Below are positions 2,172-17,171 of a stretch of DNA of 64,000 bases, piece after piece (the stretch's first letter is position 1; every line of letters starts with the position of its first letter). The notes beneath the pieces were generated by a model. It had not been told where the DNA came from, did not search any database, and worked only from the letters and a program-made list of their open reading frames with translations. The position numbers and the translations under genes are program-made. The DNA is from Candidatus Saccharimonadota bacterium. GTDB lineage: Bacteria; Patescibacteriota; Saccharimonadia; Saccharimonadales; Saccharimonadaceae. Location of the stretch: NCBI GenBank assembly GCA_028289065.1, contig JAQGHA010000013.1, positions 1 to 64,000 on the forward strand. Reading direction: 5' to 3'.

Positions 2172-2435
2172 TTAATCTTGAATTCGGCGGAAAGCTTCGT
2201 AGCCTTCATAGATATCAATTGCGTTTGCGGCTAAATCCTCGGGTTCAGCAGGTTGCATGTAGGCAGTCGCTTCCGGAATGAGTGACCATGCATAGCTTAT
2301 AACTTCATCTTCACTTAATGCAGGGTTATCGTGAGCGATTTGGTTAATTAACTTTTTTGCATCCTCGCCAAATACTCGACTGATGTCTAATTTTTGTTCG
2401 GTTTGTTTATCAAACTTCGGTGTGTTAAATTCCAT
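2172..2435 (-). CDS. hypothetical protein
   Basis: 87 aa ORF bounded by a terminator-like hairpin at about 2135-2170. Confidence 0.55.
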   Translation of the reverse strand: MEFNTPKFDKQTEQKLDISRVFGEDAKKLINQIAHDNPALSEDEVISYAWSLIPEATAYMQPAEPEDLAANAIDIYEGYEAFRRIQD

Positions 2436-2484: not shown

Positions 2485-2554
2485 AAAAAGACTTAAAAAC
2501 CGAGTCTTTAAGTATAAATATCTTGGATATGGATAGTGGATGTGTTCAAGAATT
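2485..2554 (-). repeat. tRNA-Gln 3'-end-like repeat R1 plus terminator hairpin
   Basis: AAAGACT..AGTCTTT hairpin followed by CTTGGATATGGATAGTGGATGTGTTCAAGAA, degenerate match to CTTGGCTGGGGTTAGTGGTCGTGTTCCAGGAA. Confidence 0.5.
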
Positions 2555-2638
2555 AATTACTTAATTAATTCTGCGCCCTCCTGCTAAAGTCTTGTAAAAT
2601 TGCGACTTCACCAACAAGGGAGGATACGATACCTTTTT

Positions 2639-2674
2639 CTTGGCTTGAGTTAGTGGTCGTGTTTCAGGAAATTA
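2639..2674 (-). repeat. tRNA-Gln 3'-end-like repeat R2
   Basis: CTTGGCTTGAGTTAGTGGTCGTGTTTCAGGAAAT; close match to R3. Confidence 0.7.
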
Positions 2675-3052
2675 CTTTGAATCCTGCGTAGGGTAGCCTT
2701 TTAAGTCCTTGTCAAACGTTAACACATCGCCGACTGAGTATTGATTAAACATAGCTTCGTTTACCTCAATCTGCAATTCGATACATCCGCTGTCATCGGA
2801 AATTGTTTCATCCCCACGGTCGCATTGCTCAATAGTCATATGGTATACATCTTCATAATGTGGGAAGCCGGGGCTTTCTTGCGCAGATACAAATCTTTCA
2901 GACTCTTGTTTATCTAAAACTTCAACAGGTTGGTGAGCTATTACCTGATATGAACCGACGGAACAGCCAGCAAGACCAAGCGCGACACCTCCGAATAAAG
3001 CGACGCTCATAAGTGGTTTGCGAAATTTTTCATATCTATTTTTTAATTCCAT
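2672..3052 (-). CDS. lipoprotein, hypothetical
   Basis: N-terminal signal peptide with lipobox LAGC; start MELKNRYEKF. Confidence 0.7.
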   Translation of the reverse strand: MELKNRYEKFRKPLMSVALFGGVALGLAGCSVGSYQVIAHQPVEVLDKQESERFVSAQESPGFPHYEDVYHMTIEQCDRGDETISDDSGCIELQIEVNEAMFNQYSVGDVLTFDKDLKGYPTQDSK

Positions 3053-3097
3053 GTACTTTAGCCTACCATTAGGTAGCGTTGATGCAAGCATAATTAT

Positions 3098-3132
3098 CTT
3101 GGCTGGGGTTAGTGGTCGTGTTCCAGGAAGAA
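3098..3132 (-). repeat. tRNA-Gln 3'-end-like repeat R3
   Basis: CTTGGCTGGGGTTAGTGGTCGTGTTCCAGGAAGAA; first 11 nt identical to the tRNA-Gln 3' end (CCCCAGCCAAG). Confidence 0.75.
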
Positions 3133-3136
3133 ACTT

Positions 3137-3325
3137 CTATTTTTGAGATTTTTGAAGAAGTAGTTCGTATGTAAGACTTAAATTATCTCGCTCAGCTTTT
3201 GTCTTTTGTAATTCAAAATTAAAATACAAAAATAATGCTGTTACGATAATCGAATAAGTAATAAAAATACTTAATAAAATAATAAGTTTGTTGTTTTTTG
3301 ATTCCAGATTATCTTTTTTAAACAT
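3137..3325 (-). CDS. small membrane-anchored coiled-coil protein
   Basis: 62 aa ORF, one TM segment. Confidence 0.55.
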   Translation of the reverse strand: MFKKDNLESKNNKLIILLSIFITYSIIVTALFLYFNFELQKTKAERDNLSLTYELLLQKSQK

Positions 3326-3345
3326 AATCTGATTATAACAAACAA

Positions 3346-3414
3346 AAAGACTCCAATATGGAGTCTTTAAGCATAATCTTCTTGGCCGGGATTAATGAAT
3401 ATGCTTCAGGAAAT
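3346..3414 (-). repeat. tRNA-Gln 3'-end-like repeat R4 plus terminator hairpin
   Basis: AAAGACTCcaatatgGAGTCTTT then CTTGGCCGGGATTAATGAATATGCTTCAGGAAATG. Confidence 0.65.
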
Positions 3415-3487
3415 GGAAGCACCCTCTTTCGAGGGGCCTCCGTGATGGACGCACTCCTTTCGAGAGGGTGAATAGGTAGACGACGAG

Positions 3488-3742
3488 CTACGTCTCGATT
3501 CGGATGTGATCGCCTTGTTCCTCGTCGCGTTCCAGAGAAACTCTCCAGCCAGCTTTCCGGTATTCGTTTATCACGAGTTGCTCCAGAGCCGGGGTGTTGA
3601 AGCGGCTACGAAGGATGCCGAGCGCGGTGCCCGTACCGACATTGTCGACGAGTTCGGCGTCAATCTGTTTGCAAATCCACTCGAGCGGATGAGTATCTCG
3701 CATACGGGATAGATCTTCCGCTTCGTTAGGCGCGATGGGCAT
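3488..3742 (-). CDS. hypothetical protein (C/G-ending codons)
   Basis: 84 aa ORF; AGGATCAGAGATG leader; codon bias unlike the neighbours. Confidence 0.6.
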   Translation of the reverse strand: MPIAPNEAEDLSRMRDTHPLEWICKQIDAELVDNVGTGTALGILRSRFNTPALEQLVINEYRKAGWRVSLERDEEQGDHIRIET

Positions 3743-3856
3743 CTCTGATCCTACCTGTCTCTAAAGTTGAGTAGAGACAAAACTCATTTCCAACAGATGT
3801 TAGAACTATATCTTATCATATTGTGATAAAAAAGCAATTAGCTTAGCCTTCTGAGT

Positions 3857-3890
3857 CGGATGAGGGATTCGAATTCAAAATTCCAAGGTG
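3857..3890 (-). repeat. tRNA T-arm-like repeat L1
   Basis: GGATGAGGGATTCGAATTCAAAATTCCAAGGTG; shares GGATGAGGGATTCGAA with the tRNA-Gln T-arm/acceptor and with L3. Confidence 0.7.
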
Positions 3891-3935
3891 AAATTAGTGA
3901 ATGTATTCATGAAAATATATTTTATAAATCGTTCT

Positions 3936-4904
3936 TTAATATTCACGGAAAAGGGGTTTAATATCACCGATTTTCAACGCTTCCGAGGCATCAGCCGTGG
4001 AATACATGTAATGCTTATTTCGTCTAGAATCAAGAGATGGATCTTTAACGACCACAGTAATATTAACATTTGGAGATTTTATTGTGAGCTCATTAGCTCT
4101 ATTGATTACTTGATTAATGATCAATTTCAGTTTAGCATTATCTATTTCTGATAAATTATTTACTTCGTATAGATAGTAAGCATTATAGCCTTGTTTAGCT
4201 CTTACATCAGGCGAAAGTTGCTCTAGAGATTCTTTAAGCTTGTGGGTTCTATCATCAATCATATCGTCCTGAAATTTCCCATAACCCGTATAAACATATG
4301 CTTTTCCGTCTAATCCACTACTTAACCTTAAGGCGTTTAAGCTTTCACTTTCGCGTTTACTCCAAAGTGCAAAAAAGTAATCATCCGTAAAATCAGTGTC
4401 TTGTTTTGTTTTGCACTGAGACAAACATTTGCGTACATAAAAATTGATAGAAGTATCATTTTTCGGCGAGTATCGTTTACTGTAGCTAATAGGTTCCCCT
4501 AAAGTACTAGAACTCCCACCCTTGGTCAGAACAAATTCTTCATTATACTTTTCTCTTAGATATGTAGTTGCGAGTGGATCTTGAGGAATGATAGCTTGTA
4601 AGCTGAACTGATTTAGCCATAAAAATATAAATGCTAATATTAGAACTGCTGACTGAATTATTACCCATATGCTAGCAATTATCGTTATCACAACTTTAGG
4701 TGCCGTACGCCATCCAGAGAACGACCATAGTAATACAATTCCAAGAAAGGGTGTGAAAATTAAAGCTACTACCGTCCAGGCACTTTTGGCAAATGAATGT
4801 TTATTCTGCGTAAGCGTAGAAGTCGGTACTTCGTTTTCATTAATCATTGCTTTCACATTAACATTAGAAGAATAATTTTGCGAACGTTTCTGCGTAAATC
4901 GCAT
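3936..4904 (-). CDS. membrane protein, hypothetical
   Basis: 322 aa, two N-terminal TM segments. Confidence 0.65.
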   Translation of the reverse strand: MRFTQKRSQNYSSNVNVKAMINENEVPTSTLTQNKHSFAKSAWTVVALIFTPFLGIVLLWSFSGWRTAPKVVITIIASIWVIIQSAVLILAFIFLWLNQFSLQAIIPQDPLATTYLREKYNEEFVLTKGGSSSTLGEPISYSKRYSPKNDTSINFYVRKCLSQCKTKQDTDFTDDYFFALWSKRESESLNALRLSSGLDGKAYVYTGYGKFQDDMIDDRTHKLKESLEQLSPDVRAKQGYNAYYLYEVNNLSEIDNAKLKLIINQVINRANELTIKSPNVNITVVVKDPSLDSRRNKHYMYSTADASEALKIGDIKPLFREY

Positions 4905-4908
4905 TGTT

Positions 4909-5060
4909 CAGGGATAAAAAATTTGAACTAAAAATTTCAAGGCGGGGTTTTGCGTTGCAAAAAAAGTGAGTCGAGCCACAGCTCTAGTCAAGAAAAAAGA
5001 CAGTAGTTCGACTGTCTTTTTTCTTGAGTGTGGTTACTGGTCGTGTTCCAGGAAGAACAC
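4909..5060 (-). repeat. Composite repeat L2 + terminator hairpin + R5
   Basis: AGGGATAAAAAATTTGAACTAAAAATTTCAAGGCGGGGTTTTGCGTTGC..; hairpin AAGAAAAAAGACAGTagttcgACTGTCTTTTTTCTT; then CTTGAGTGTGGTTACTGGTCGTGTTCCAGGAAGAA. Confidence 0.7.
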
Positions 5061-5094
5061 TAGATAGAATGCCTTCTGAGCGTATAATGTAAAT

Positions 5095-5970
5095 ATGAAG
5101 AAAGGTCGATACTACGAAGAAAAAACTGCCGAAATTGTGCAGCAAAATAACCCTAAAGCTCAAGTCTTTCAAGGCATTAGGGTATTGGGTAAGTTAACGG
5201 ACTTAAAGCGAGAAATTGATGTCCAACTCGTAGACGCTTCTCAATACGATAATCTCGTATTTGAATGCAAAGACCATAAAGCAAAAGTTGACATAGAGCT
5301 AGTTGAAGCCTTGGTTACAAAGTTATTAGATATCGGCTCAACGAAGGGCGCTATTGTTTCGAACTCAGGCTTTACGAAGGGAGCATACAAAGCAGGCGCA
5401 GCACACGGAATAGATTTGCTATCAATTGTTGACAGTAATGACGAAAAAATTCGAACTAAGGTTTTTGCACCTCAAATTACTGAGGACTTGTATTTATCAA
5501 AGGCGTCATTATCACTTAACAATATACGCATGGCACATAACTTCGGCCCTGACTTGACGGGTACTCTCATTAAAACACCGCAAGGAAATATAGGTTGGGA
5601 TATAGTGCTAGGCAAACATTGGAATAATGTACATATGAAAAATAATCCCAAACCAGGCGAGTATTTCTTAAAAATCGAAGATGGTACTGTTATTGACCTT
5701 TCGAAAAATAATATTCCAGTCGGCGAAATTACAATTCGCTATTTCGTTGAAAAACGTTATTATCTACGAAACCTTGAACTTATCGAAACACAAGGTATAT
5801 ATGACGTAGCACGCCAGACCTATCAAACTAGTAGTTTAACGACCGAAATGATAAAAGTGGAAGATTTCAATAACCCTCAAAAGTGGGAAGTTATAGATGA
5901 AGAAACAGCAAAGAAAATGATAGTTCCAGTGCGAATGAAAATAATCACTCCACTGCCAGACAAAATATAG
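5095..5970 (+). CDS. PD-(D/E)XK nuclease, Mrr-like restriction endonuclease
   Basis: REIDVQL..LVFECKDHKAKVDIELVEAL..GAIVSNSGFTKGAYKAGAAHGIDLLS typical of the Mrr_cat fold. Confidence 0.7.
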   Translation: MKKGRYYEEKTAEIVQQNNPKAQVFQGIRVLGKLTDLKREIDVQLVDASQYDNLVFECKDHKAKVDIELVEALVTKLLDIGSTKGAIVSNSGFTKGAYKAGAAHGIDLLSIVDSNDEKIRTKVFAPQITEDLYLSKASLSLNNIRMAHNFGPDLTGTLIKTPQGNIGWDIVLGKHWNNVHMKNNPKPGEYFLKIEDGTVIDLSKNNIPVGEITIRYFVEKRYYLRNLELIETQGIYDVARQTYQTSSLTTEMIKVEDFNNPQKWEVIDEETAKKMIVPVRMKIITPLPDKI

Positions 5971-6028
5971 TTATCAAGATTGTACTTCAGAACGTGGAAT
6001 TTCACGAAGAACAACTTAGGTGAAATAA

Positions 6029-6104
6029 AAAAAGCCATACATTCGATGGCTTTTTATACAGATACTTTTCTTGGCTGGGGTTAATGGTTGTGTTCCAGGA
6101 AGAA
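6029..6104 (-). repeat. tRNA-Gln 3'-end-like repeat R6 plus terminator hairpin
   Basis: AAAAAGCCATacattcgATGGCTTTTT then CTTGGCTGGGGTTAATGGTTGTGTTCCAGGAAGAA. Confidence 0.75.
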
Positions 6105-6105
6105 T

Positions 6106-6891
6106 TTATAAATTCTCTGCTAGAATCTTGTCGCAACTATGAGCAAAACCTATCCCCGTATTTGAAGACCTTTTGATATTTTCAGATACGACTTTCATCT
6201 GTTCCTGTGTTGCAATCAAGACTTTTACCGGATCTATGCCCCCTATGGACATATTTGCCTTAACACTACTCATAACTTTTATATTATTATCGTAGCTTTT
6301 AATCAAATCATCGAATTCACTGAATAGACCTGTTCTTTTTTTAGTCACTACACCAATTAACTCTTTTGTTTTGATGTCTATCAACGGGCCGCCAGAGTTG
6401 CCATTGTTAACACTCGCATCAAGCTGTAAAGTTTTTACATTATTTTCAGTAAAAATAGCTGAGATTCTACCGACATGTGATGTCATATACTTAGTGTTAA
6501 AAGGGTAGCCGCAGAGTAACACACTTTGCCCCTCGTATGAATTGTCGGGTTTAAGTACAAACTGATACCTGTTGCTAGTATCTATAGGAAGTTTATACAC
6601 GATGTAATCATAAGAATATTGGTCTGAACCTGCATAAGGTGTGAATGAACCATATCTAATAACAACATCATCGTTCGCATACTGTGGAGTATCTCCGAAC
6701 CTTAAACGAACTTCGGTTTCGGGCTTAAATTGTGAGTATTTAGGATTAAATACATGATTATTGGATATTAAATATCCTTTATAAACAAAGCCCGACCCAC
6801 CTGCTAAAACCTCATTTTCATAATAAAATGTAATTCCTACTACCGCGCTTCTAACGTCACTAATAATCGCTGATACTTCTTCAGAATCCAT
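6106..6891 (-). CDS. trypsin-like serine protease
   Basis: GSGFVYKGYLISNNHVF (His), SYDYIVYKL (Asp region), NNGNSGGPLID (Ser) catalytic motifs. Confidence 0.8.
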   Translation of the reverse strand: MDSEEVSAIISDVRSAVVGITFYYENEVLAGGSGFVYKGYLISNNHVFNPKYSQFKPETEVRLRFGDTPQYANDDVVIRYGSFTPYAGSDQYSYDYIVYKLPIDTSNRYQFVLKPDNSYEGQSVLLCGYPFNTKYMTSHVGRISAIFTENNVKTLQLDASVNNGNSGGPLIDIKTKELIGVVTKKRTGLFSEFDDLIKSYDNNIKVMSSVKANMSIGGIDPVKVLIATQEQMKVVSENIKRSSNTGIGFAHSCDKILAENL

Positions 6892-6968
6892 ATATCCTCC
6901 TTTATTATGGTAATTTTATCAGTATAGCCCGTAGATATAAAAACAAATAGAATTCGAAATATAAATTA

Positions 6969-7083
6969 GAGGATGAGGGATTCGAACTAAAAATTCCAAG
7001 GTGGGGTTTTGCTTTGCAAAACGGGGGTTCGAGCCGAATCTCGGGCAAGAAAAAATACGAACAGATAGTTCGTATTTTTTCTT
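6969..7083 (-). repeat. Composite repeat L3 + terminator of tRNA-Gln
   Basis: GAGGATGAGGGATTCGAACTAAAAATTCCAAGGTGGGGTTTTGCTTTGCAAAACGGGGGTTCGAGCC; then hairpin AAGAAAAAATACGAACagataGTTCGTATTTTTTCTT abutting the tRNA. Confidence 0.75.
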
Positions 7084-7157
7084 GGCTGGGGATGAGGGAT
7101 TCGAACCCCCGAATACTGGTACCAGAAACCAGTGCCTTACCACTTGGCGAATCCCCA
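7083..7157 (-). tRNA. tRNA-Gln (CTG anticodon), CCA encoded
   Basis: Reverse complement TGGGGATTCGCCAAGTGGTAAGGCACTGGTTTCTGGTACCAGTATTCGGGGGTTCGAATCCCTCATCCCCAGCCA folds as a cloverleaf; loop TTCTGGT. Confidence 0.95.

Positions 7158-15740: not shown

Positions 15741-17171
<1,431 letters not shown>

Follow-up and report, generated by a model that had tools for sequence, protein, structure and literature searches.

The genomes of Saccharibacteria, which live on other bacteria, are very small, and little is known of how these organisms acquire adaptive genes. Here we describe an array of mostly single-gene units behind a tRNA-Gln gene of a Candidatus Saccharimonadota bacterium (GenBank assembly GCA_028289065.1). 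The DNA analyzed, called the window below, comprises positions 1 to 64,000 of contig JAQGHA010000013.1; it begins at a contig end, and the contigs of metagenome-assembled genomes (MAGs) limit array ends. An earlier note on this DNA had reported six copies of a motif together with an intact tRNA-Gln at 7083-7157 on the minus strand, and all of them lie where it had placed them. The copies form a 43-nt motif family starting at 2514, 2631, 3090, 3373, 5015 and 6062. Terminator hairpins had been claimed for five of these seven positions, and a hairpin with a T-run is found at all five (7046-7084, 6029-6055, 4988-5027, 3346-3368 and about 2487-2509). A second module, said to copy the tRNA T-arm, is real at 3858, 4912 and 6971. 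Read in the direction of the tRNA, the features are as follows.

7083..7157, minus: tRNA-Gln(CTG), the array anchor, with CCA encoded; its 3′ end CCCCAGCCA is the putative recombination core
7046..7084, minus: terminator hairpin immediately after the tRNA CCA
6970..7082, minus: non-coding first unit, with the terminator, an inverted T-arm copy, a GTTTTGC/GCAAAAC hairpin and then GTTCGAATCCCTCATCC, a tRNA 3′-end copy with a decayed tail
6106..6891, minus: cassette 1 gene, trypsin-like protease (PF13365)
6062..6104, minus: recombination site 1 (profile)
5961..6086, plus: 3′ remnant of a tRNA-Gln-type large serine recombinase (LSR) gene, running into site 1 (DNA and translated match)
6029..6055, minus: terminator behind site 1
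5095..5970, plus: cassette 2 gene, Mrr-type nuclease, in opposite orientation, the same as that of the LSR remnant
5015..5057, minus: recombination site 2 (profile)
4988..5027, minus: terminator behind site 2
4909..4980, minus: diverged copy of the non-coding first unit
3936..4904, minus: cassette 3 gene, membrane protein without a Pfam family
3858..3890, minus: third copy of the tRNA T-arm module
3488..3742, minus: 84-aa gene without a family
3373..3415, minus: recombination site 3 (profile)
3346..3368, minus: terminator behind site 3
3137..3325, minus: cassette 4 gene, 62-aa membrane protein
3090..3132, minus: recombination site 4, nearest of all to the family consensus (profile)
2672..3091, minus: cassette 5 gene, 139-aa lipoprotein
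2631..2673, minus: recombination site 5, overlapping the stop of the lipoprotein gene (profile)
2514..2556, minus: recombination site 6, the most decayed, with a terminator next at about 2487-2509 (profile)
2172..2435, minus: 87-aa gene past the last recognized site, possibly the next cassette

The recombination site and its tRNA anchors

The profile used for the sites was trained on sites of other genomes alone, so that scoring of the window is not circular. The six sites reach 35.6, 33.2, 26.2, 20.5, 18.5 and 14.5 bits, ranging from near-consensus to decayed, and no further position of the window exceeds 5.9 bits; a candidate decayed site at 3895-3908 (2.7 bits) is not significant. The top score in 30 dinucleotide shuffles of the 64 kb is 7.7 bits, so the modules, at 14.5-35.6 bits, stand far above the shuffled sequence with which the earlier note had proposed to compare them.

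On the minus strand, along which the tRNA is also read, the site has the sequence TTCTTCCTGGAACACGACCACTAACCCCAGCCAAG; its consensus is TTCTTCCTGAAACACATCCACTAGCCCCAGCCAAG. The sole segment matching the tRNA end is CCCCAGCCAAG. Upstream of it lies a conserved arm of about 24 bp, AAACAYATCCACTA, also given as TTCTTCCTGAAACACATCCACTA, which is separate from the T-arm. RNAalifold predicts zero pairs for a common fold of 90 aligned sites. The modules had been described as degenerate tRNA 3′ ends: only 9-11 bp are in common with the tRNA, and the rest is the conserved arm TTCTTCCTGAAACACATCCACTA and not, as had been thought, a degenerated T-arm. To judge from their sequences, the sites are distinct conserved recombination-site modules, not merely degenerate tRNA 3′ ends.

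With a sequence-only model, 58 of the family's 394 genomes, from 22 of its 61 genera, prove to have sites, with a maximum of 12 per genome. In a comparison set of one genome per species (85,462 species), the exact degenerate 24-mer matches 22 stretches, of which 21 belong to Saccharibacteria or Saccharimonadia and the remaining one to an unplaced 'bacterium' MAG; the exact site has zero matches in 2.9 million viral contigs. Orientation is uniform in the first set of fetched loci (88 of 88 sites on one strand, 0 on the other). Genomes G063 and G478, which are placed in different families, were counted once, as 6.6 kb (L180/L181) are common to them at 100% identity, reflecting recent transfer or possibly cross-binning.

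The only tRNA found in the array loci scanned first is tRNA-Gln. Later loci include an array anchored on tRNA-Trp, with the site AAACACATCCACTAACCCTTGCCA, and a unit anchored on tRNA-Asn, with the site AAACATGTCCACTAGGGGGAGCCA and a copy of the tRNA-Asn 3′ end about 190 bp on. Across these loci, the arm is constant while the core changes with the tRNA (Gln, Trp or Asn).

The second module terminates in a copy of the tRNA T-arm and also adjoins the other tRNA-Gln gene of this genome, tRNA-Gln(TTG) (C1:22284-22472, 81% identity). A short non-coding unit of about 110-220 bp, ending in a tRNA 3′-end copy, follows tRNA-Gln in 17 of 41 loci, and a similar one is present behind one tRNA-Trp.

Cassette structure and turnover

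The 74 site-to-site intervals have a median length of 637 bp, and the units are mostly single-gene and unrelated in function. Among 67 intervals of up to 1.8 kb, the longest open reading frame (ORF) runs along the array in 50 and is opposed to it in 14, ORF starts clustering 50-60 nt past the site and stops 27-46 nt ahead of the cassette end. The usual order is the site, about 17 nt, a terminator hairpin, a −10-like sequence and a nearby ATG, the promoters having been identified by eye; cassette starts fall into classes, among them AGATGATTATGCTTAAA. Most of the 47 cassette proteins are unrelated to one another (Nudix, GNAT, HIT, NADAR, Hsp20, ASCH, methyltransferases, trypsin-like and Mrr), and many have no family. 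The serial integron-like array on tRNA-Gln that the earlier note had conceived, with a unit of about one gene plus a site/terminator module, is borne out.

Two cassettes are common to G238 and G166: A, of about 0.5 kb, is 87% identical between them, and B, of 1.1 kb, is 93% identical. Their order is A-X-B in the former and B-A, directly behind the tRNA unit, in the latter; homology stops at CCCAGCC on both sides, and the flanking sequence is unrelated. At the level of compared sequences, this swapped order with borders at CCCAGCC is direct evidence of site-specific shuffling. One cassette family, of 703 bp, is present in three arrays, each time among different neighbors; one genome has it behind tRNA-Gln(TTG), another behind tRNA-Gln(CTG). 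Gene order is not fixed in relatives, compared here as one genome per species, where presence/absence variation of units is strong: the six array genes of the window have 0 matches in the other fetched loci, same-genus arrays included. As had been anticipated, related genomes carry the module beside tRNA-Gln with different cassettes, the units being shuffled at the modules.

These observations also bear on the view that the locus is a tRNA hotspot turned graveyard, where integrations and deletions took place independently and left attachment ends behind as the modules, without a cassette system. Some units are indeed long, multi-gene or decayed, the window sites range down to decayed ones, and LSR remnants occur. 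However, one site is conserved over 22 genera, single-gene units have clustered stops and starts, and permuted cassettes have exact borders, all of which make a graveyard highly improbable. The array itself is well supported.

Recombinases at the sites

No integrase had been noticed in the window, and indeed no intact one is present in cis; what it keeps is the LSR remnant at 5961-6086. The DNA of this remnant aligns with an intact LSR gene along 111 bp (74.8% identity, E 5e-10) and with the remnant of another LSR gene, in L095, along 80 bp (82.5%, E 4e-12); its translation also matches LSR genes. Array units encode an LSR in L089, L090, L095, L102, L136 and L180. The gene adjoins a site in L089, and in L102, L136, L090, L095 and L180 (tRNA-Asn) it lies between the anchor, either tRNA or site, and the next site, the unit terminating in a cassette-type site. 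The LSR reading frame enters the tRNA 3′ end in antisense in L102, L136, L095 and L180, and enters a site in L090. Most of these LSRs have a zinc ribbon in addition to the Resolvase and Recombinase domains. A terminator hairpin stands directly behind the tRNA in several LSR units; the tRNA would need its own terminator because an LSR unit is inserted behind it. The opposite orientation of the Mrr nuclease gene fits former LSR-unit cargo, and a search for this nuclease among phage records found none.

Another 22 LSR genes include 12 that overlap, in antisense, the 3′ end of a tRNA gene (Leu, Met, Trp, Glu, Asn or Gly) and one that lies 83 bp from tRNA-Gln. Outside the window, this genome has LSR genes on C1 (L207), C5 (L208) and C6 (L209), overlapping the 3′ ends of tRNA-Leu, -Met and -Trp in antisense; tRNA-targeting LSRs look widespread in the family. 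The tRNA-Trp element spans L209:7091-16060, and CCCTGCCAAGCATAAGTATTATAG at 16046 resembles the start of a further cassette. A gene for a protein of 268-286 aa with similar motifs adjoins the LSR in three loci (L136:7242-8102, L090:2260-3105 and L209:8706-9512), and its product is a candidate directionality factor or accessory protein.

The earlier note had looked to a tyrosine recombinase as the enzyme, which is probably wrong, since array-rich relatives often have Xer only and LSRs are physically tied to the sites. The genome itself has two tyrosine recombinases, one Xer and one integrase adjoining tRNA-Arg. No PF00589 tyrosine recombinase locus is located at an array. The extra Xer-like recombinases of G178 and G218 were rejected as cassette integrases, as they adjoin tRNA-Gly 3′ ends. 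Xer-like integrases beside tRNA-Gly 3′ ends in two genera (L193 and L194) are 52% identical, and that of L194 has terminase-like genes nearby and likely belongs to a prophage.

A tyrosine integrase of a visiting helper element could nevertheless move the cassettes. The 8-9 bp core with inverted arms (AAACAYA...TRTGTTT) would then be a tyrosine-recombinase site of the ordinary kind, placed at a tRNA 3′ end; such ends are classic targets of tyrosine integrases, the shared core is 7-11 bp, and the junction has imperfect inverted arms. But 0 of the ten extra tyrosine recombinases whose context was inspected adjoins a site, the two Xer-like ones lying beside tRNA-Gly 3′ ends, one of them near terminase genes; an exact match to the site is absent from the viral contigs; and the site-linked recombinases are LSRs. 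We regard such a helper as unlikely.

Movement of the same array by the housekeeping Xer, as in dif-module arrays, would take the cassette start AGATGA-TTATGCTTAAA for a 6-bp spacer plus XerD arm and CCCCAGCCA for the XerC-side arm. It would suit the many array-bearing genomes with exactly one tyrosine recombinase, an Xer, and the frequent occurrence of TTATGYTTAAA at dif-like 11-6-11 spacing. Against it, no canonical or palindromic dif was identified in array genomes with two patterns, whose matches were chance-level or inconsistent; the XerD-like arm is present in part of the cassettes and missing from many; the sites share one orientation; and the tRNA side has no XerC/XerD-like arms. Xer seems a distinctly unlikely mover. 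The best dif candidate near arrays (in G097) proved to be a promoter-like stretch ahead of a gene.

We consider it probable that the locus is a tRNA-anchored cassette array whose units are moved by the LSR of tRNA-targeting elements. Mostly single-gene units would be inserted serially behind tRNA-Gln, each ending in a recombination site, after which a terminator and usually a promoter-like sequence would open the next unit. A circular cassette would recombine at CCCCAGCC(A) with the tRNA end or a neighboring site, and this would add, remove or reorder units while the tRNA stays intact. Given the LSR genes at tRNA ends and sites, the shared unit ends and the LSR remnant of the window, the small cassettes would be non-autonomous satellites of tRNA-Gln LSR elements, moved in trans. 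Catalysis by the LSR, circular intermediates and present-day activity are what we infer from comparing sequences.

Several points weigh against the LSR. It is present in 18 of 20 array-bearing and 21 of 25 array-less genomes, which gives no separation, and therefore the argument is one of position, not of co-occurrence. Two array genomes have no LSR match, and this genome, whose three LSRs sit at tRNA-Leu, -Met and -Trp, lacks an intact LSR at tRNA-Gln. The cassette start (AGATGATTATGCTTAAA and the other classes) is only loosely like the LSR-unit start, and junctions between cassettes imply recombination beyond plain attP × attB. The support is comparative throughout, and the promoters are eye-read.

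Relation to known systems and extent of the island

In integrons, attC sites vary in sequence while their secondary structure is conserved, and promoters are absent from most cassettes (PMC9024848). Integrons and clusters of attC sites lacking integron-integrases (CALINs) resemble the present arrays in their serial single-gene cassettes, one orientation, a site 3′ of each gene, shuffling and cargo (Nudix, GNAT, HIT, Hsp20, methyltransferase and unknowns). In contrast, the sites here are sequence-conserved without a predicted common fold, a tRNA gene is the anchor in place of attI, and there is no IntI (the Xer of this genome scores 151 bits on the IntI model, with a cut-off of 265). The array is not an integron because it has no IntI, no attC-like folding, and cassettes that bring a terminator and promoter-like sequence of their own.

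Staphylococcal cassette chromosome (SCC) composite islands, in which the large serine recombinases Ccr insert units at the 3′ end of rlmH and units accumulate in tandem with direct-repeat att sites, would be the nearest serine-recombinase parallel. Like the present arrays, they have LSRs, one conserved gene whose 3′ end takes the insertions, tandem direct-repeat sites and recombinase-less units, but here the target is tRNA-Gln, -Trp or -Asn, not rlmH, the cassettes are mostly single-gene, the shared site is longer, and there is one LSR with no known ccrAB pair. Repeats of tRNA ends mark additive islands in Methylophilaceae (PMC10872708). Such islands and tycheposons likewise lie behind a tRNA whose 3′-end sequence is repeated, whereas the sites here are defined by a ~24-bp arm outside tRNA identity, and the mostly single-gene units have exact borders and no linked tyrosine recombinase. 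The dif-module arrays of Acinetobacter (PMC12907356) are also linear multi-module gene arrays between short recombination sites with a recombinase in trans, but here no XerC/XerD site pair was found, the sites have a single orientation, and the anchor is a tRNA.

No description of such arrays in Saccharibacteria was found in the open-access literature (subscription papers and preprints lay outside the search), and it appears that no gene-capture system of this kind has been described for them. A broader reading, that this is an integron-like, non-homologous form of gene capture, apparently confined to Saccharibacteria, in which tRNA-targeting LSRs build and reshuffle rows of mostly single-gene cassettes behind tRNA genes through a fixed arm and a core that follows the tRNA (Gln, Trp or Asn), strikes us as evenly poised. 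If true, it would mean a dedicated platform for cassettes at these tRNA genes, by which the rapid single-gene turnover there would be explained; a cassette array would exist independently of IntI/attC; and a family of serine integrases, compact and with defined tRNA targets, would be at hand.

The island may reach past the recognized sites, to judge from an NlpC/P60 gene at 807-1282 of the window that matches, with 72% DNA identity, a gene of the same-genus genome G003 located ~3.7 kb downstream of tRNA-Gln. At 1794-1986 lies a fragment of a membrane-transporter-like gene, which is 76% identical to stretches on the array contigs of G009 and G010.

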